Below are positions 12,418-33,794 of a stretch of 45,997 nt of DNA, one piece after another; position 1 is the stretch's first letter, and the number at the start of each line of letters is the position of its first letter. The stretch is from Synergistota bacterium. GTDB lineage: Bacteria > Synergistota > GBS-1. Made by a program: the position numbers and the translations under genes. A model generated the notes under the pieces. The model was given only the letters and a program-made list of their open reading frames with translations, was not told the origin of the DNA and searched no databases. Location: assembly GCA_021159885.1 (NCBI GenBank), contig JAGHDO010000013.1, forward strand, positions 1 to 45,997, in the 5' to 3' direction.

Positions 12418-13209
12418 ATGGTAAGAATAAAGACAGCAATCTTAATCATGCTTATGCTGTCTTTAAGCATCGGTTTAGCTCATGCGATCGAAAATCCATT
12501 CCTCAAAGACGCAAAGATAAAGCTCGCTAATGCTGAGAGAATAGCGATTATTCCATTTGCAGACTATTCGCGAAATCCATTTGGAATCGGAAATAGAAGA
12601 CTTCTATTCGCAATCAGGCAGAGATTCGAATCGCTCGGAAAGCTCGTGATACCAGATGAAGATGTATGGATGATCCTAAAAAAGATGGGAGTTATTCCGA
12701 AGGAAAATGAGCGCAAACTAATCCTGGAAGAACAGCTTAGGAGCTATGGCTTTAGCAGAGAGCTTGCAGAATTCATCGAGTCTCAGGACCTAAGGTACTG
12801 GAGCAAGCCATATATCCCATCTCTAACGGAGAAGCAGATTAGAGAAATAGGAAAAGCACTTAAAGCTGATATAATAGTAAGGGGCTGTATAGTAGATTAT
12901 GGTGTAATAGATGTATCGAGTGGAAGCCCCATAAGCAACGTAATAGGGGGAATTGCTCCTCTTATGACAGCCCGCAGAATAGGAATTGCCCTCGCTGCCG
13001 GAAGCTACATACCATCTTCCGACAAGGAGGGCGTTGTTCAAATGACCATATATCTACAGGATGGAAGAACGGGAAGGCTTATATATGGCAAGTCTGTATT
13101 TGCCACCTATAAGCCTACCTTCTCGACTCTTAAAAGCAAGTTTGTGCTCCTAAGAGGAGCATTAAAGAGAGCGCTTGATGCCTTTTTTAACGACTTCTCA
13201 ATGAATTAA
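12418..13209 (+). CDS. Secreted CsgG/TolB-N-like protein of unknown function
   Basis: A 263-aa protein with a clear signal peptide (residues 1-24, ending SIGLAHA). The mature part starts with an alpha/beta module of the kind found in CsgG, FlgT-M and GNA1162-like proteins: ERIAIIPFADYSRNP, then a long helix, then LGKLVIPDEDVW, and ALKADIIVRGCIVDYG. Residues 195-215 (IGGIAPLMTARRIGIALAAG) are hydrophobic and glycine rich. The last part has strand-rich DGRTGRLIYGKSV. No lipobox cysteine is seen. A strong AAAGGAGGGG ribosome site lies upstream. Its final 12 bases overlap the convergent gene. The fold is shared with the proteins of the 29201-33794 operon, so an envelope role is likely, but the function is unknown. 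Confidence 0.75.
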   Translation: MVRIKTAILIMLMLSLSIGLAHAIENPFLKDAKIKLANAERIAIIPFADYSRNPFGIGNRRLLFAIRQRFESLGKLVIPDEDVWMILKKMGVIPKENERKLILEEQLRSYGFSRELAEFIESQDLRYWSKPYIPSLTEKQIREIGKALKADIIVRGCIVDYGVIDVSSGSPISNVIGGIAPLMTARRIGIALAAGSYIPSSDKEGVVQMTIYLQDGRTGRLIYGKSVFATYKPTFSTLKSKFVLLRGALKRALDAFFNDFSMN

Positions 13210-26367: not shown

Positions 26368-27430
26368 TGGAGATATTCTCGTCGTTTTCAGGCTTGGGAG
26401 ATCCCATGTGTATGGTAGAGATGGAAGAATACTTCTATCACGAAGCCGAGATAAGGGAAAAAGCTGGCAAACTAAGGAAATCATCCACACTCCAGAAAGA
26501 TTCGTGCGATACGAGGGAAGCTATGAGCTAGTCTCAGATGACAGAGACCCCTCCTTAGCAACGCTTTCAAATGGAGAAATTCTTCTCAACTGGTTTCACT
26601 GGGGAGATGGGGACAGAGACTCCCCAACAAGCTCAATATATATATCAAAAAGCAGAGATAGCGGAGAAAGCTGGAGCAAGCCCAAAATGATTTTCTTCAA
26701 CGCTGCCACATCAGATGCGGTGCTTGAAATTGAGAGAGGCGTTCTGCTTCTCCCTGCTTACGGATCCTTAGGAGATGAATTCTCATCGAGCTTTCTTCTT
26801 AGAAGCGAGGATTATGGTGAAACCTGGCACGAAAAAGTTATAATAATAGCAAGAGGGAGGGATTTCGGTTTTGACTTCTACGAGCCCGCGATAACGAAGC
26901 TCAGAGAAGGAGAGCTTCTCTGCGTTTTAAGAACGAGTGTGGGATTTTTATACGAGAGTCGCTCCAGAGACGGTGGAAAAACATGGGAAAAACCAAATCC
27001 CCTTCCCTTTTATGGACACTGTCCCGATCTCCTAACGCTAAAGGATGGTAGAGTAATTCTAACTTTCAGGGATATAGAGCTATATGAGAAAGAAAAATGG
27101 TTTTGGGAAAAGCTTCTTTACAATCTTGGCTTAAGGGACATTGCACCGATATCACCGCTTCCGTATACGAGAACCCTCCCGGAAGCGGTAGCCATGGTAG
27201 AAGCCCTCCCTCCAGAATATTCTTTCACTAAGGAAGGCAAAATAATCGTATATGAACCACGGGGTTATAAAACTGAAAGTGGAGATTTATTACTTGGGGA
27301 TGCTGGATATCCAAGTGCGATTGAGATTGATGAAGGTAGAGTAATGATCGTTTTCTATGAAGCTCCTTATGGATATGGAGGAAGATACGCTCCGTGGAGC
27401 GAGATCATGGGAGCTATAATAAAGCTTTAA
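26288..27430 (+). CDS. Asp-box (BNR) sialidase-like beta-propeller protein, no signal peptide
   Basis: A 380-aa six-bladed propeller protein of the sialidase superfamily. Four Asp boxes (S-x-D-x-G-x-[ST]-W) are visible: SRDKGKSW, SRDSGESW, SEDYGETW and SRDGGKTW. The N-terminal TIYRGTPMHAAFPDVETAPNGDILVVFR fits the first blade with a candidate catalytic arginine (split motif), and RDPSLATLSNGEILLNW the second. No signal peptide or anchor is present, so it is probably cytoplasmic. The start is the ATG at 26288 because AAGAGGTGGAT lies eight bases before it; an ATG at 26330 is possible. It overlaps metH by 80 bases. No sialic acid genes are nearby. The enzyme activity is uncertain. Confidence 0.82.
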   Translation: MKKEREFTIYRGTPMHAAFPDVETAPNGDILVVFRLGRSHVYGRDGRILLSRSRDKGKSWQTKEIIHTPERFVRYEGSYELVSDDRDPSLATLSNGEILLNWFHWGDGDRDSPTSSIYISKSRDSGESWSKPKMIFFNAATSDAVLEIERGVLLLPAYGSLGDEFSSSFLLRSEDYGETWHEKVIIIARGRDFGFDFYEPAITKLREGELLCVLRTSVGFLYESRSRDGGKTWEKPNPLPFYGHCPDLLTLKDGRVILTFRDIELYEKEKWFWEKLLYNLGLRDIAPISPLPYTRTLPEAVAMVEALPPEYSFTKEGKIIVYEPRGYKTESGDLLLGDAGYPSAIEIDEGRVMIVFYEAPYGYGGRYAPWSEIMGAIIKL

Positions 27431-27453
27431 AGGTCATCAGGGGGTGGTTCTCA

Positions 27454-28197
27454 ATGAAGCTCGAGGATGTCCTAAAAAGCGAGGAAATCGTTGAAACGCT
27501 CGAAGCTTTTTCAAAAAGCCTTGAGATATCGGTCTGGCTTTCCGATCCCCAGATAGAGGAGGTGAATAAGATCTCCCCCGTCTGGGGTGAAAAACCGGGT
27601 AAGAAGGAGCTCACCAGGGCTGGAATGCTTAAGGCAGAGTGCAAACCTGGTAGAATCGAAATGAGAAGAAAAGCGGTCGCTCAAAGAAAGCCGATAATTG
27701 AGCTTTGTCCCCTTCAGCTTTATGTATTCACCGCCCCAATATTCATCGGCGATGAACTAATAGGTTTCTTCGAAGGGGACGGCGCTAAGGCGAGACCCAT
27801 GGACGAAGAATGGAGAAAGATAGTTCAAGAAAAACAGAAGAAATATGGGTTTGATATTAAGCTTATAGAGGAGTGCGTAGGCGAAAAAACGAGGATAAAA
27901 TCCAAGGAAGAGCTCGCCGGCATGATAGATGTCGTCGTAAGCAGCATCAAGCTCTATCTTGAGCTAATGAAAAAGCAAGAAGAGTTTATAAAACACCTAA
28001 TAGAAATAAGCAGGGATATAACGAAAACCGCCAAAAACATTCAGACACTTGGTATAAACGCCGCGATAGAGTCAGCAAGGTTAGGAGAAAAAGGCGCTGG
28101 TTTTGCGGTAGTAGCATCTGAGATCAAGAAAGTAGGAGATCTCGTTTCACAGCAAGCAAAGAGGTTAAAGGAACATATAGACGAGCTTATGTTATAA
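27454..28197 (+). CDS. Soluble PocR-type sensor fused to a short chemoreceptor signalling tip
   Basis: About 247 aa from ATG 27454 (GGGGGTGG ribosome site). Residues 5-150 resemble the PocR sensory domain: [22 protein letters not shown], then [20 protein letters not shown], and [27 protein letters not shown], with the two cysteines typical of the family. Residues 180-247 are a chemoreceptor hairpin tip ([31 protein letters not shown]), but the returning helix stops soon after it. There is no membrane segment. It could be a small cytoplasmic receptor or an adaptor that pairs with the next protein. The ligand is unknown; PocR domains often bind small organic metabolites. Confidence 0.78.
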
Positions 28198-28217: not shown

Positions 28218-29084
28218 ATGGAAAACGGCGTGGTTTTCGTCGGAGGAGGGCACGGGGCGCTAAGCCTCCTTAAGCACTTCCTCAAGCTTAACCTAAAAAT
28301 CGCGGGGGTCATGGATATAAAGGAAGATGCTCCCGCCATGCTTGAGGCGAGAAAGCATGGAATATTCACAACGACGAGTTTAGATGAGCTTCTTTCCCGT
28401 CCCTTAGATCTCATAATAGAGGTAACCGGCAGAGAAGACGTGGCTGAAGAGATAGAAAGGAAAAAACCTAAGAAAGTTAGTTTGCTTCGCGCGAAGGATG
28501 CCGAATTTATCTACGATATAATAGAGCGTGAGGAGAAAGGAAAAGCCTTACTTTTAGAACAGATATCCCGACTTCAGGAAACCAAAGATAAGATAGAAAA
28601 TACGCTTCCCTCATTGAATGAGCTCTCAGAAACGTTCTTCAAGGGATCAGACCAGATCAAAGGCCTCTCAGGTTCGTTAGCAAGCAGAATAGAATCACTC
28701 GTAAGTGAGGCAGAAAAGCTTAACGAAGTAACTCGATCAATCCAAAACATAGCGAAGCAAACTAAGATGCTCGGGCTGAACGCCTCCATTGAGGCAGCCC
28801 GAGCGGGGGAGCGTGGAAAAGGGTTCGCAGTCGTTGCAAGTGAGGTAAGCAAGCTCGCCGATCAAACATCAGACTCCGTTAAGGAAATAGGCGAAACCCT
28901 TGGCCAGCTTAAAGAAATGATAAACATGCTCCGCTCCCCTATAGAAGACATGACTGACACTATGGAAAAATGGATTGGTTTAACGGATAAGCTACATCAA
29001 ACCGTAGGTAATTTAAATGAAGCTATAAGAGAGCTTCTTGAGATCCAGCAAAAACTCACAAGATTAGCCGAAAAAGGTTGCTAA
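28218..29084 (+). CDS. Soluble chemoreceptor-like protein with N-terminal Rossmann NAD-binding-like domain
   Basis: A 288-aa protein. Residues 1-100 are a Rossmann-like domain: [17 protein letters not shown] (GxGxxG-like), [42 protein letters not shown]. This resembles the NAD-binding part of homoserine dehydrogenase-type proteins and of N-terminal sensors in some sigma-54 activators. Residues 115-288 are chemoreceptor coiled coil with the tip [38 protein letters not shown]. There is no membrane segment. The call is a cytoplasmic receptor reading a nucleotide or redox state; the ligand is inference. It is 20 bases after the PocR receptor gene and precedes tRNA-Pro. Confidence 0.8.
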
Positions 29085-29200: not shown

Positions 29201-29962
29201 CTAATAACAGTTTACATAGATTACGTTTCCTTGAACGGAAGCAACGCTTATCGGAAGTCCCGCGCTTCTTAACGCACGCGCTATGCTTCTTAAATCTCCA
29301 GAATAGAGAAACTCTATTATCGCTTGTCCCCCTCCATATGATACTATTCTCACCTTTTTTGCCCTCGGAAAGCCAAGCACCCTCTCATATACGCTATTAA
29401 CGATGCCATAGTCAGAGACTCCTCTTAAGACTATTTTCACTATCCCCCGAAAGGCTCCCGCGTATTCCCCACCTGTTAGATAAGCCCCAGCCTTAGAGGC
29501 AGCCTTAAGAAGAGCCTTTCTTTTTGCCTCGCTTGGTGTATAGCCTATAGCCTTAGCGGAAAATGCTTTGCTTAGTAAAAAGCGGGCATTTCGGGTTCTA
29601 TAAGCCTGTATAGAAAGAGAAGCAGTAGCGGTATAAAGTCCAAACTCGTTCTCGCGAGCTCCGCCAATTATAGCCTTCCCCTTAACCAAGTAGGCTATTC
29701 TATAAAGTCTCCCCAGCTTCATGATAGCTTCCGCCTTACCCTGAAGCGCTAAAATCGCAGCACGACTTCTCCTTATTCTATCAAGCTGAGCCCTATCAAC
29801 GACATTATAGCCGGCATTTATAAGCTTTTCCATAACCTTAGCTTCGGCAAGAGGATTATTAAACATCACTGCAACTCTTCCTCCATGAGGAAGAGTTGCA
29901 AGGGCAACCCCTCCGAAGTAGAGGATCAGAATAAGGGTTAGGGCTAATCTTCTTAGCATCAA
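29201..29962 (-). CDS. Secreted FlgT-like protein lacking the N-terminal domain (envelope operon gene 5)
   Basis: A 253-aa protein with a signal peptide (1-22, ending GGVALA). Its layout parallels residues 125-383 of the FlgT-like protein encoded at 31788-32939. An alpha/beta part (MEKLINAGYNVVDRAQLDRIRRSR, then LYRIAYLVKGKAI) is followed by TASLSIQAYRTRNARFLLSKAF, a helix with SEAKRKALLKAASKAGAYL, and a C-terminal beta-alpha-beta repeat domain (IVKIVLRGVSDYG through SVASVQGNVIYVNCY). It is the final gene of the five-gene operon, its start overlapping the CsgG-like gene by 4 bases. The function is not known; a periplasmic or outer membrane-associated role is inferred. Confidence 0.78.
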   Translation of the reverse strand: MMLRRLALTLILILYFGGVALATLPHGGRVAVMFNNPLAEAKVMEKLINAGYNVVDRAQLDRIRRSRAAILALQGKAEAIMKLGRLYRIAYLVKGKAIIGGARENEFGLYTATASLSIQAYRTRNARFLLSKAFSAKAIGYTPSEAKRKALLKAASKAGAYLTGGEYAGAFRGIVKIVLRGVSDYGIVNSVYERVLGFPRAKKVRIVSYGGGQAIIEFLYSGDLRSIARALRSAGLPISVASVQGNVIYVNCY

Positions 29963-31332
29963 AGGGCACCTGCCTTCGCAAGCTTCTCTCTTATGGGCTT
30001 ATAATTCGGATTTATCTTCAAGCCACGCCTCCACCACTTTATAGCCTCGCTCCTTCTTCCTATCTCGTAATATATCCTGCCTATCCAATAACACGCAACA
30101 TAGTTTCCCTTGTACATCTCATATGCAAGCTTATAGTTCCTTATTGCAAGCGAGTATCTTCTTTTTCTGTAGTTATAATACCCTGCCTTATGCAGTCTTA
30201 TCAGATTATTCTTCAGAGATTCGCCTATAGGATAAAGCTTTATAACCTGAATGGTAGTAGAGGTATTCATTATTGACTCCGTCGGCGTAGAAGGCGGTGG
30301 TGGAGGTGGCGGTGGAGAGGACGTTCCTGCTCCTCCAGATGGAGGAGGTGGTGGAGGTGGCGGAGTGGAAGGCGTTGAGGAAGCACCTGCAAGTATTCTG
30401 GGCCTTATCTTTATCCTGCCTATAGAGGATTTATCGAAAATGGGCTCTACCTTATCCCCCCTGATAACTCCCTTGCCCTTAACTATCCTCGCTATTGAAT
30501 AACGAGGATGGACCTCCTGAACCTGAAGTATGGCTATATAATACTTTTCCACGCCGAGAAGCTCTCCCTTAACGCCGTATATGGGCTCCCCCTCAACATA
30601 GACAGCGAAATAATCCCCAGGCGAAACCCCAGCATTAGATTCACCCGCATCAAGATAGACATACCCTGCCTCTCTCTTTATAACGTGATAGATCATTTTC
30701 CCGCCGCGAGCTCTCAAAGCCCTTATCTTCTTAACTATCTTCTCTATGCATTGACGTGTTGCAGCAGCAAGGAGTCCTTCCGCTTCGCTCTGGCCGTAGA
30801 TCACTCCTCCAAAGGCGAGACCACCGACGCTGTGAGTTGCTCTTCCCGTTTCCTTTGCAACGAGCACTATCTCACCCGTTTCAACATTGATCATCCTGAC
30901 ATCGAGAGTAACAAACGCCTCCGCCTCCCCAAAAGCTATACCTCCGACGTTAGGAACAGGCAGAACCCCTCCTCTCTTTTTCAACGTAAATTGCGTTATG
31001 CTACCAGTTATTATCGCCTCAACGCCGAGAAGCTTTCCCAAACGTGCCGCTGTAGCCTCATCGACCAACCCCGACGCAGCCAACCTGTGTTCCCTCGCTA
31101 TAGCCTCCAAGCGACTTCTTTCCACTATGGAAAACATTTGAGTTTTCCATAGCTCCGTTATAAACATATCAGTAATGGCACGTCTAACCGCTTCAACCTT
31201 TGGCCTCTCAGGTCCACTAACATTGTTCCTAAAGTCTATAACCGCAACTCTCATCCTACCGGCTAAGGCGAGAGCTGAAACCGAGCAGAAAAGCACCCCC
31301 ATGATTACAATCAGCAAGACTACTTTCCTCAT
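29959..31332 (-). CDS. CsgG-like secreted protein with proline-rich linker and TPR (envelope operon gene 4)
   Basis: A 457-aa protein with a signal peptide (1-24). Residues 27-210 are a CsgG-like domain: RVAVIDFRNN, AITDMFITELWKTQMFSIVERSRLEAI, LGKLLGVEAIITGSIT, DVRMINVETGEIV. Residues about 212-305 resemble the FlgT C-terminal beta domain (EAGYVYLDAGESNAGVSPGDYFAVY). Residues 315-355 are a low-complexity linker with two runs of eight prolines. Residues 375-457 form about two TPR helix pairs (YRKRRYSLAIRNYKLAYEMY, WIGRIYYEIGRRSEAIKWWRRG). There is no lipobox cysteine, unlike true CsgG. A channel or scaffold role in the envelope is inference. Confidence 0.82.
   Translation of the reverse strand: MRKVVLLIVIMGVLFCSVSALALAGRMRVAVIDFRNNVSGPERPKVEAVRRAITDMFITELWKTQMFSIVERSRLEAIAREHRLAASGLVDEATAARLGKLLGVEAIITGSITQFTLKKRGGVLPVPNVGGIAFGEAEAFVTLDVRMINVETGEIVLVAKETGRATHSVGGLAFGGVIYGQSEAEGLLAAATRQCIEKIVKKIRALRARGGKMIYHVIKREAGYVYLDAGESNAGVSPGDYFAVYVEGEPIYGVKGELLGVEKYYIAILQVQEVHPRYSIARIVKGKGVIRGDKVEPIFDKSSIGRIKIRPRILAGASSTPSTPPPPPPPPSGGAGTSSPPPPPPPPSTPTESIMNTSTTIQVIKLYPIGESLKNNLIRLHKAGYYNYRKRRYSLAIRNYKLAYEMYKGNYVACYWIGRIYYEIGRRSEAIKWWRRGLKINPNYKPIREKLAKAGAL
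30290..30367 (-). repeat. Low-complexity polyproline-coding tract
   Basis: Two runs of (GGN)-type sequence on the plus strand encode two stretches of eight consecutive prolines each on the minus strand, separated by a Ser/Gly/Ala/Thr segment. Proline runs of this length normally need EF-P for translation. Confidence 0.85.
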
Positions 31333-31350
31333 TGCCCAAATCGACCTCCT

Positions 31351-31791
31351 TTACTGAATCTCCACACTATACTCTAAAAGCTCTTTGAGGGGAATCTTAA
31401 GAACTATCTTATAGGTTCTTCCATCAAAGCTTTCATTCACGACATATCCCCCACCAACTATTCCCTTTATCTTAACCGTCGTATAGTTCTTGGGAATGGG
31501 ATAATTAAGCTGATATAAAAGAAGAAGCGCATTTCTTTCCGCATCTATAAGCGCCGCTCTTCTCGCCAGAAGCTTAGCTTGCGCTTTACTCTCATAGCTT
31601 TTAGGGATCTTTCCCATCCCCTCTACTATAACTGCCCTCTCTTCCCAGTCTATCTTCCCCCAAGGAAATCCCTCAAGGGCTATGTTGTTTTTATTGGCCT
31701 TTTTAAGCAAAGATATGTCAACCTTATAGGGGATACCAAAGACCGGGGAGAGAAGGCAAAATATCAAAAGAACTGCTAAAGCTATCCTCAC
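31351..31791 (-). CDS. LPP20-like secreted protein (envelope operon gene 3)
   Basis: A 146-aa protein with a signal peptide (1-19, ending SPVFG). The mature part has the LPP20 family pattern: EERAVIVEGMGKIP, then the helix AQAKLLARRAALIDAERNALLLL, then TTVKIKGIVGGGYVVNES and TYKIVLKIPLKEL. The family pairs two beta strands around a long LA-R-A helix that also occurs in FlgT N-terminal domains. It starts 4 bases inside the upstream FlgT-like gene and is followed after 18 bases by the CsgG-like gene. No lipobox is visible, although many family members are lipoproteins. Confidence 0.78.
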   Translation of the reverse strand: MRIALAVLLIFCLLSPVFGIPYKVDISLLKKANKNNIALEGFPWGKIDWEERAVIVEGMGKIPKSYESKAQAKLLARRAALIDAERNALLLLYQLNYPIPKNYTTVKIKGIVGGGYVVNESFDGRTYKIVLKIPLKELLEYSVEIQ

Positions 31792-32939
31792 TTTGCTCCT
31801 CCTCCCTTAAACCTACAAACTATCTTATTCGCGGAAAAGTCCGTTATCTCTAAGCCAAGCCCCTCTAATCTTACCGCAAGATCCTCAGCATTTCCCTCAA
31901 AATTAACGTCAAGGGTCAGATTGCCCTCATGAAAACTTCTTTGGTAAACACCAACCACGCCCTTAAAATTTCCTATCTTCCTTTTCAGCATCATGGCACC
32001 TGTGAACTTTAATCCCTCTATCCTGACCTGAATGGTTCTACCCGGGATCCCTCTCCCGGTCTGCCCGAGCATCGCATAAGCCACCTCATAGACAAGCTTT
32101 TTAGCAGCTCGAGACGCGGCTATCTTAAGCGCCTTCATCGCCGCATCATTCACGCTTAATCCCACCTTCCTCACGGAGGGTATCGCTATCCCAAGCACCT
32201 TACCCGTCTGCGTTATAACCGCCTTTATCTGAAGTTGAGCTTGAACTCCGTAAAGCTTTTGCCCCGAGATAACCTGTGATGTGTAAGGGACCGCCATCGC
32301 TCTACCAAAGATCACGACATCCGCATCATGCCTTTTAGCAAGCTCGATTAGCTTCGTCCGATCCCCCCTCAGGCTCGCTTCAGTTGCCTCCCTTCTCCTA
32401 TTAGCATCTATCTGTTTGGGGTCAACAACGTGATAGCCAGCGTTCTGAAATATGCTCAAGATAGTAGACTCACTGACCGAAAGAAACGGCGTTTTACCCG
32501 CTATATTCTCATCTATGCAGACCATAAGAACAGGATTTCCCAGGGTGTCTATCACCACGGGTCCGAGAACGTCGTTTAGCTTCCTTAAAGCAACCGTTGC
32601 GCGCATCTTCACCTTAATCACGCCATCTTCTTCCCATCTTTTTAAGATCTTATAGCTCGTTATAAGCCCCTTTGACTGCGCCATAACTTTATCCCTTATA
32701 ACTTGAAAGTTTTCCATCTCAGTTATACCGTGAATCAGAACACCAAGTCCTTTCTCTATAGCGTTTCTAAAGGCGTCCCTTTTCGCCTCATCAAACGCCC
32801 TCTCCTTATCCCCTCCTATTATGGCTCCGGCTCCCTCAACCTCAACCGTTGTGGCGCTTCCCGCTGCGAGTGCGGGAAGCGCCATGTATCCAACTATAGT
32901 CGAAATCAGAAGAAAAATAAACGCAGTCTTAAAGCGCAT
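31788..32939 (-). CDS. FlgT-like secreted protein (envelope operon gene 2)
   Basis: A 383-aa protein with a signal peptide (1-25, ending ALPALAA). Residues 30-120 form a FlgT-N-like domain (VEVEGAGAIIGGDKERAFDEA, KRDAFRNAIEKGLGVLI, VIKVKMRATVALRKL). Residues 135-300 form an alpha/beta domain like FlgT-M/CsgG (GNPVLMVCIDENI, ILSIFQNAGYHVVD, AKRHDADVVIFGRAM). Residues 305-383 form a beta-alpha-beta repeat (IQVRIEGLKFTGAMMLKRKIG, GNLTLDVNFEGNAEDLAVRL). In Vibrio, FlgT builds the flagellar H-ring, but no flagellar genes are near, so I avoid that name. It overlaps the LPP20-like gene by 4 bases. Confidence 0.8.
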   Translation of the reverse strand: MRFKTAFIFLLISTIVGYMALPALAAGSATTVEVEGAGAIIGGDKERAFDEAKRDAFRNAIEKGLGVLIHGITEMENFQVIRDKVMAQSKGLITSYKILKRWEEDGVIKVKMRATVALRKLNDVLGPVVIDTLGNPVLMVCIDENIAGKTPFLSVSESTILSIFQNAGYHVVDPKQIDANRRREATEASLRGDRTKLIELAKRHDADVVIFGRAMAVPYTSQVISGQKLYGVQAQLQIKAVITQTGKVLGIAIPSVRKVGLSVNDAAMKALKIAASRAAKKLVYEVAYAMLGQTGRGIPGRTIQVRIEGLKFTGAMMLKRKIGNFKGVVGVYQRSFHEGNLTLDVNFEGNAEDLAVRLEGLGLEITDFSANKIVCRFKGGGAK

Positions 32940-32945
32940 TACCGA

Positions 32946-33794
32946 TCACCGCTTAACCACTATTACCCTACATGCCGCTCTGAAATCATAGTTATTATGT
33001 CTTATAGCATCCGCATCTCTCTTGGATATAACGACGTCCACGTTATTTGGAGAAACCGTCTTTACCGCTTTCGCAACGAGGGGCTTGGGGCCTACCCTCG
33101 GATCACCCTTAGCCCAATTTATGTTGGTTTGATAGGCAGCCATTCCGCTTGCCATAAACCTCTCCCTATCCACATATTTGAGGGAATAAACCTCTCTACC
33201 ATTTGGATCGAGTATTCTGAAGGTAGTAGCAGGAATAAGGGGAACATATCGCGCATCTAAAACCAAGCCCGTGTAATTAGCCCTCCTCGGAGGAGGAGAA
33301 ACCCTTCTTCTCTTTACTCCTTTCATGTCTGCTACTATTCTTCTTATCTTCTTAAGATATATTCTTCCCCAAACGGTATAGATCTCTCCATCCCATTTCT
33401 CTCTAACTATCTCTATTCCCTTTATCCACCCGTGAACCTCGCTTCTGACCACATCGCTTTTAACCATGAAATTCTCCATCAAGGTTTCACTGTCTATTCT
33501 CACGCCCTTAATCGCCTCAAGCATATTCCTTTGAAGATCGAGAATAGCCCCTCTCTTAGCGAGAAGCTTTCCCTGAGCCTTGTTAACCGCCGTCGTGGGA
33601 GGAACCGCGGATCCGGAAGCCTCAATGTAATCATCAGTCCAATTTATAGATCCATGAGCCGTTTCCTCCACAACTTTCCCCACTTGGCTTGGCAGGTTAG
33701 CCGTGGGCTGCGATGACTGCGCGAAGGCACCTATCGTTATAATACCTACGCCCAGACATATAATCAACCAGCCTGCGATTTTCTTCAAATCCAT
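32946..33794 (-). CDS. LPP20-like secreted protein with extra C-terminal domain (envelope operon gene 1)
   Basis: A 282-aa protein with a signal peptide (1-26, ending GAFAQ). Residues 50-160 have the LPP20-like pattern (DDYIEASGSAVPP, then AQGKLLAKRGAILDLQRNMLEAI, then KWDGEIYTVWGRIYL). After a basic linker (GVKRRRVSPPPRR), residues 180-282 form a second domain: TGLVLDARYVPLIPATTFRI, NGREVYSLKYVDRERF, KPLVAKAVKTVSPNNVDVVIS and RAACRVIVVKR. This architecture occurs in envelope proteins of several diderm phyla with no defined function. It is the first gene of the operon, with an AGAGGAGGT ribosome site. Confidence 0.78.
   Translation of the reverse strand: MDLKKIAGWLIICLGVGIITIGAFAQSSQPTANLPSQVGKVVEETAHGSINWTDDYIEASGSAVPPTTAVNKAQGKLLAKRGAILDLQRNMLEAIKGVRIDSETLMENFMVKSDVVRSEVHGWIKGIEIVREKWDGEIYTVWGRIYLKKIRRIVADMKGVKRRRVSPPPRRANYTGLVLDARYVPLIPATTFRILDPNGREVYSLKYVDRERFMASGMAAYQTNINWAKGDPRVGPKPLVAKAVKTVSPNNVDVVISKRDADAIRHNNYDFRAACRVIVVKR

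Follow-up and report, generated by a model that had tools for sequence, protein, structure and literature searches.

The window analysed here is a stretch of 45,997 nucleotides (nt) from a bacterium of the phylum Synergistota (assembly GCA_021159885.1, contig JAGHDO010000013.1, positions 1 to 45,997). Five co-directional genes, running from 33794 (gene 1, at the high-coordinate end) to 29201 (gene 5), form a putative operon whose products probably belong to an outer ring of the flagellar motor. An earlier note, drawn up from the window alone, had placed five open reading frames here, and all of them were present on the minus strand:

32946..33794, minus strand: gene 1, 282 amino acids (aa); signal peptide, FlgP-type SHS2 domain (about aa 40-150), linker and C-terminal domain (about aa 165-282)
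31788..32939, minus strand: gene 2, 383 aa; signal peptide, FlgT_N/SHS2 domain, CsgG-like alpha/beta domain and C-terminal ferredoxin-like domain
31351..31791, minus strand: gene 3, 146 aa, GTG start; signal peptide and one SHS2/FlgP-type domain
29959..31332, minus strand: gene 4, 457 aa; signal peptide, CsgG domain, beta domain, proline-rich linker and tetratricopeptide repeats (TPR)
29201..29962, minus strand: gene 5, 253 aa, TTG start; signal peptide, CsgG-like alpha/beta domain and C-terminal domain, no SHS2 domain

The successive junctions from gene 1 to gene 5 measure 6, -4, 18 and -4 nt. The genes therefore overlap at two of the four junctions, and their description as mostly overlapping was slightly generous. 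Each of the five proteins begins with a hydrophobic Sec-type N-terminus, recognized by eye, in agreement with the signal peptides and the envelope location proposed in the earlier note. No lipobox-like motif was detected in any of the five window proteins nor among the homologues of genes 1, 3 and 4, and scattered ones were found among those of genes 2 and 5.

The recurrence of modules was measured by profile-profile comparison of the domains of genes 1 to 5, in which unrelated pairs scored 0-3.6%. The N-terminal domain of gene 1 matched gene 3 with a probability of 98.8% and the N-terminal domain of gene 2 with 96.8%. The middle parts of genes 2 and 5 matched each other with 98.9% and their C-termini with 97%, and the middle part of gene 5 matched the CsgG domain of gene 4 with 92% (E = 5.6e-7). 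Direct comparison of gene 2 with gene 4 gave a weak score (10%), so that the link between these two rests on gene 5. BLASTP aligned gene 1 with gene 3 at 28% identity and gene 2 with gene 5 at 29% identity, both at about 1e-8. The claim that modules recur in different combinations thus held beyond chance (92-98.9% for related against 0-3.6% for unrelated pairs). As judged from these profiles, an SHS2/FlgP-type domain is common to gene 1, the N-terminus of gene 2 and gene 3, a CsgG-like alpha/beta domain is common to the middle of gene 2 and to genes 4 and 5, and one C-terminal domain is common to genes 2 and 5. Gene 5 had been called a shortened gene 2 lacking the N-terminal domain, which fits its homologous middle and C-terminal parts and the absence of SHS2.

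In the FlgP family, ring formation is reported to go together with an insert that separates the SHS2 helix from the second strand (PMC12222027). The gene 1 profile matched Campylobacter FlgP (9hmf_C) with an E value of 7e-15 in an alignment running through this insert, and other FlgP chains with 1e-5 to 2e-3, including Vibrio FlgP (8z5n, 2e-3). The insert of gene 1 has a constant length of 39-40 residues in all 15 homologues, and at most one gap column is needed to align it with FlgP; the gene 1 model does not resolve its structure. In gene 2 it comprises 40-41 residues in 13 of 18 homologues, those in which the motif could be located cleanly. The insert of gene 3 is shorter than that of gene 1: its profile matched 9hmf_C with an E value of 1.3e-7 and a 9-residue gap at this position. 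The LPP20-like label given earlier to genes 1 and 3 was correct as a fold class, but their real sequence relative is FlgP. Literal membership of the LPP20 family was rejected, as Pfam LPP20 was found in 1 of 15 gene 1 members (E = 0.17) and in 0 of 12 for gene 3.

The C-terminal part of gene 1 (aa 164-280) matched domain 2 of Treponema Tp0624 (5jir) at 1e-3 in profile comparison. Foldseek searches with the gene 1 model returned Tp0624 (5.5e-5), FlgP (2.1e-4) and HP1454 (1.6e-2) as the top three; the AlphaFold model is of low confidence, with a predicted local distance difference test score (pLDDT) of 53, and these fold matches serve as support only. The same search aligned Tp0624 over 271 columns, together with FlgP. 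In the 2016 structure paper on Tp0624 (PDB 5jir), domain 1 was likened to trigger factor. The architecture shared with gene 1, an SHS2 domain followed by domain 2, suggests from the modelled fold that domain 1 of Tp0624 may belong to the SHS2/FlgP fold class.

For gene 2, Pfam FlgT_N was found in 13 of 18 homologues (best 3.7e-9); the window protein itself had no Pfam match. None of the 18 members matched FlgT_M or FlgT_C in Pfam, and the CsgG-like and ferredoxin-like domains stand in their place. Gene 2 also matched FlgP in profile comparison (9.5e-4). Its C-terminal domain is predicted to follow a beta-alpha-beta-beta-alpha-beta order with a pLDDT of 70-83 at aa 301-380. This domain is the only usable part of an AlphaFold model built from a four-row alignment (overall pLDDT 42), and a fold search with the model gave no significant matches. 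Moreover, NCBIfam LipL46 was found in 16 of 18 gene 2 homologues (best 5e-20); the window protein stays far below the family cut-off (40 of 400 bits).

The LipL46 matches, together with the resemblance of gene 1 to Tp0624 domains 1 and 2 in profile and fold searches, would suit general envelope-maintenance proteins that tie the outer membrane to peptidoglycan, comparable to spirochaete LipL46 and Tp0624, with an indirect link to flagella. This explanation is considered unlikely. Gene 1 lacks the OmpA-like domain of Tp0624, and its profile match to FlgP is far stronger than that to Tp0624. Spirochaetes are also flagellated, so that the resemblance does not separate the two explanations.

Gene 4 matched Pfam CsgG with 4.3e-33 and TPR_2 with 7e-8, as well as solved CsgG structures with 1.6e-8, and its reading as CsgG, proline-rich linker and TPR was borne out. 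All 14 of its homologues carry CsgG, 5 of 14 have a weak FlgT_C match (best 5e-3), and similarity to LpoB and TolB_N was seen too. The beta domain that follows CsgG matched TsaP (4.6e-5) and is weakly FlgT_C/TsaP-like. Weak CsgG matches were obtained for 4 of 16 gene 5 homologues. Searching for curlin repeats (PF07012) revealed none in 188 genomes of the phylum, whereas they were found in the E. coli control, and a curli or curli-like system was rejected. The independence from curli asserted earlier is further consistent with the sequence of gene 4, which has no lipobox and, in the N-terminal region of the CsgG alignment, lacks five residues present in E. coli CsgG.

The host genome (1.77 Mb, 97% complete) contains genes for rod proteins, FlgA, FlgH, FlgI (L103), hook, MotA, MotB and FliP (L104). 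From this gene content it is predicted to encode a flagellum with L- and P-rings (FlgH, FlgI). The earlier statement that csgA, csgB and flagellar genes are missing holds for the window only, as flagellar genes lie elsewhere in the same genome.

The co-occurrence of the five genes with flagella was determined in the same 188 genomes, with FlgI as the main flagellar marker. FlgI was found in 126 genomes, gene 1 in 70 (67 of them strong matches), gene 2 in 84, gene 5 in 97 and gene 4 in 129. Gene 1 and FlgI occurred together in 61 genomes, gene 1 without FlgI in 6, FlgI without gene 1 in 65 and neither in 56 (Fisher p = 4e-8). Five of the six genomes with gene 1 and no FlgI carry flagellar rod/hook C-domains, a check made on chosen genomes only; flagellar genes are thus present in 66 of 67 gene 1 genomes. 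When genera are counted instead of genomes, 26 of 41 flagellated ones contain gene 1, compared with 1 of 22 aflagellate ones (p = 0.004 in a within-family permutation in which genus and family labels stand in for a tree), with similar p values for genes 2 and 5. The contrast is sharpest within family f6, where all 7 genomes of the flagellated genus g22 contain gene 1, and the aflagellate genus g26 lacks genes 1 and 2 but retains genes 4 and 5. Across the phylum, genes 1 and 2 are almost confined to flagellated genomes. Secretin, considered as a rival partner, was uninformative, being present in 177 of 188 genomes. The earlier description of the operon as distinct from flagella had rested on the window alone and is unsupported: the genome is flagellated, genes 1-3 are nearest to FlgP/FlgT, and genes 1 and 2 track flagella.

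The gene order g1-g2-g3-g4-g5 is kept in three close relatives, one of which has the same sequence as L102, a GBS-1 record. At locus L081 a gene 1 homologue, placed by BLAST, lies upstream of g2-g3-g4-g5. Elsewhere in the phylum the arrangement is g1-g2-g3-g5-g4(-g4), or the genes are split into g2-g3, g5-g4-g4 and g4-g5. The conserved order anticipated for other diderm genomes is thus kept in close relatives and rearranged across the phylum. No recurrent flanking family was found beyond a few loci outside the window's own family, among flanks that are not fully annotated, and conserved neighbours gave no clue to function. As flanking genes do not recur outside the window's family, the cluster stands by itself rather than within a larger conserved operon.

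FlgP and FlgT are flagellar ring proteins. The homology of the operon to them, the shuffling of modules, the Sec signals, the conserved clustering and the co-occurrence of genes 1 and 2 with flagella together suggest that the operon probably encodes periplasmic, outer-membrane-proximal ring proteins decorating the L/P-ring region of the flagellar motor. In Synergistota it would probably correspond to the H-ring that FlgO, FlgP and FlgT make up in Vibrio and to the basal disk of FlgP in Campylobacter. Genes 1-3 would most simply be FlgP/FlgT-type outer ring proteins of the motor. Gene 1, which keeps an insert of the length found in ring-forming FlgP, may polymerise into the main ring or disk, and the FlgT-like gene 2 would seat or assemble this ring, with gene 3 as a smaller SHS2 partner. 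Gene 4, with CsgG and TPR, may form an oligomeric ring or collar in place of Vibrio FlgO, with gene 5 as its CsgG-like partner. The resulting disk would brace the motor and the outer membrane against torque. This reading largely replaces the secretion apparatus, or other non-flagellar complex, that had been put forward in the earlier note.

Genes 4 and 5 also occur in aflagellate genomes (genus g26, G139 and G145), and in some relatives they probably have a flagellum-independent role as well. Since they share domains and a cluster with gene 2 but survive without flagella, they may constitute an envelope ring of CsgG type, which in flagellated genomes would carry the flagellar part. Their persistence in aflagellate genomes, the strong CsgG homology of gene 4 and the absence of any link between flanking families and flagellar loci could also point to a complex entirely independent of flagella, in which a CsgG-type ring (gene 4) with SHS2/CsgG-like partners makes an outer-membrane pore or secretion apparatus. 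Such a complex appears improbable: genes 1 and 2 track flagella and resemble flagellar ring proteins, the phylum has no curlin substrate, no recurrent neighbour offers itself as a candidate substrate, and pore formation is unproven for a gene 4 protein that lacks both a lipobox and five residues of the CsgG N-terminal region.

A somewhat stronger possibility, though still not the favoured one, is that two modules share the locus, genes 1-3 forming a flagellar ring and genes 4-5 a general envelope ring with coupled expression. It is a sub-case of the flagellar outer ring for genes 1-3 and a rival to it for genes 4-5. The separate occurrence of g2-g3, g4-g5 and g5-g4-g4 elsewhere speaks for it, as does the retention of only genes 4 and 5 in aflagellate relatives. 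Against this, genomes with all five genes usually have one tight cluster, and the two domains shared by genes 2 and 5 as well as the CsgG-like domain shared by genes 5 and 4 suggest one assembly.

Several observations weigh against the assignment to the flagellar motor. Gene 1 is absent in about half of the FlgI-positive genomes, and Thermanaerovibrio is flagellated, yet has the gene 4-5 pair only. In G186 (89% complete; contig C23) genes 1, 2 and 5 are present, and FlgI, the rod/hook C-domain and FliP were not found; for this genome, incomplete assembly, recent loss of the flagellum or a non-flagellar use could each apply. G074 has a gene 2 fragment without flagellar genes. The operon does not adjoin flagellar genes, with flanks that are not fully annotated. 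FlgP of Campylobacter and Vibrio are lipoproteins, whereas no lipobox is conserved here, the expected signal being absent from all 15 gene 1 homologues. No Pfam FlgO match is listed for members of genes 1-5, a result obtained without direct comparison to Vibrio FlgO or a genome-wide FlgO search, and no relationship to MotX or MotY emerged either, no search aimed at them having been made. Finally, co-occurrence is no proof of participation in the motor.

In the literature searched, the flagellar outer-ring parts described belong to Proteobacteria and Campylobacterota, and a FlgP of Acetonema longum is cited in addition. The search, of incomplete coverage, found no paper on FlgP in Synergistota nor on FlgO with CsgG. 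A FlgP/FlgT-type set with CsgG-type proteins, tied to flagella by gene content, provides a testable list of motor parts for a phylum with cultured flagellated members, and the operon serves as an example of how parts may be shared between flagellar rings and rings of CsgG type. It is conceivable, though rather doubtful, that the flagellar motor of Synergistota has an outer-ring system of separate construction, with FlgP/FlgT-type disks carried by a ring of the CsgG family. If so, the CsgG-type pair of aflagellate genomes would be either an ancestral envelope ring recruited to the motor or a remnant after its loss.

Upstream of gene 1, in the same direction, lie genes for a TatD-type hydrolase and a methionyl-tRNA synthetase (named by eye), and a convergent tRNA-Pro gene bounds the gene 5 end. 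Two adjacent chemoreceptor-like signalling proteins with C-terminal motifs of the methyl-accepting chemotaxis protein type are encoded at 27394-28197 and 28218-29084 on the plus strand; one of them has a PocR-like sensory N-terminus by eye, and in close relatives at least the first of these genes (28218-29084) also adjoins the operon. A hairpin of 15 pairs with a 3-base loop lies within the start of gene 5 (29869-29901, minus strand; local fold z -3.1) and is not kept at this length in L062 or L063. An open reading frame at 12418-13209 (plus strand) encodes a secreted protein that is TolB_N/CsgG-like by eye ('IAIIPFADYSRNP') and has no Pfam family match; as a sixth member of the set it was not supported, matching the profiles of genes 2, 4 and 5 with 8.6% at best. 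A PHROGs search gave no match.

Comparison with known systems revealed likenesses and differences in each case. The H-ring of Vibrio is built from the products of flgT, flgO and flgP, three genes with adjacent locus tags (PMC6375700); FlgO/FlgP disks have been described as well (PMC5758724). As in Vibrio, FlgP-type SHS2 proteins and a FlgT_N protein are encoded together in neighbouring genes and are predicted to reach the periplasm of a diderm whose flagellum has L- and P-rings. In contrast to the H-ring, five genes are present here, with two FlgP-like proteins, no conserved lipobox, a CsgG and TPR protein instead of a recognisable FlgO, and a second CsgG-like protein (gene 5). With the Campylobacter basal disk, gene 1 shares an alignment over the SHS2 domain and ring-forming insert of C. 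jejuni FlgP (7e-15), but adds a Tp0624-like C-terminal domain and lacks a conserved lipobox. Its SHS2 and C-terminal domains match domains 1 and 2 of Treponema pallidum Tp0624, whose OmpA-like third domain is absent from gene 1. The N-terminal and middle parts of gene 2 correspond to the Leptospira LipL46 family, whereas its score is far below the cut-off and no lipobox is conserved. The CsgG curli channel shares its CsgG domain with gene 4 (Pfam 4e-33; solved CsgG 1.6e-8), and differs in that the 188 genomes have no curlin, in that gene 4 lacks the lipobox and five residues of the N-terminal region, and in the beta domain and TPR that are fused to the CsgG domain of gene 4.

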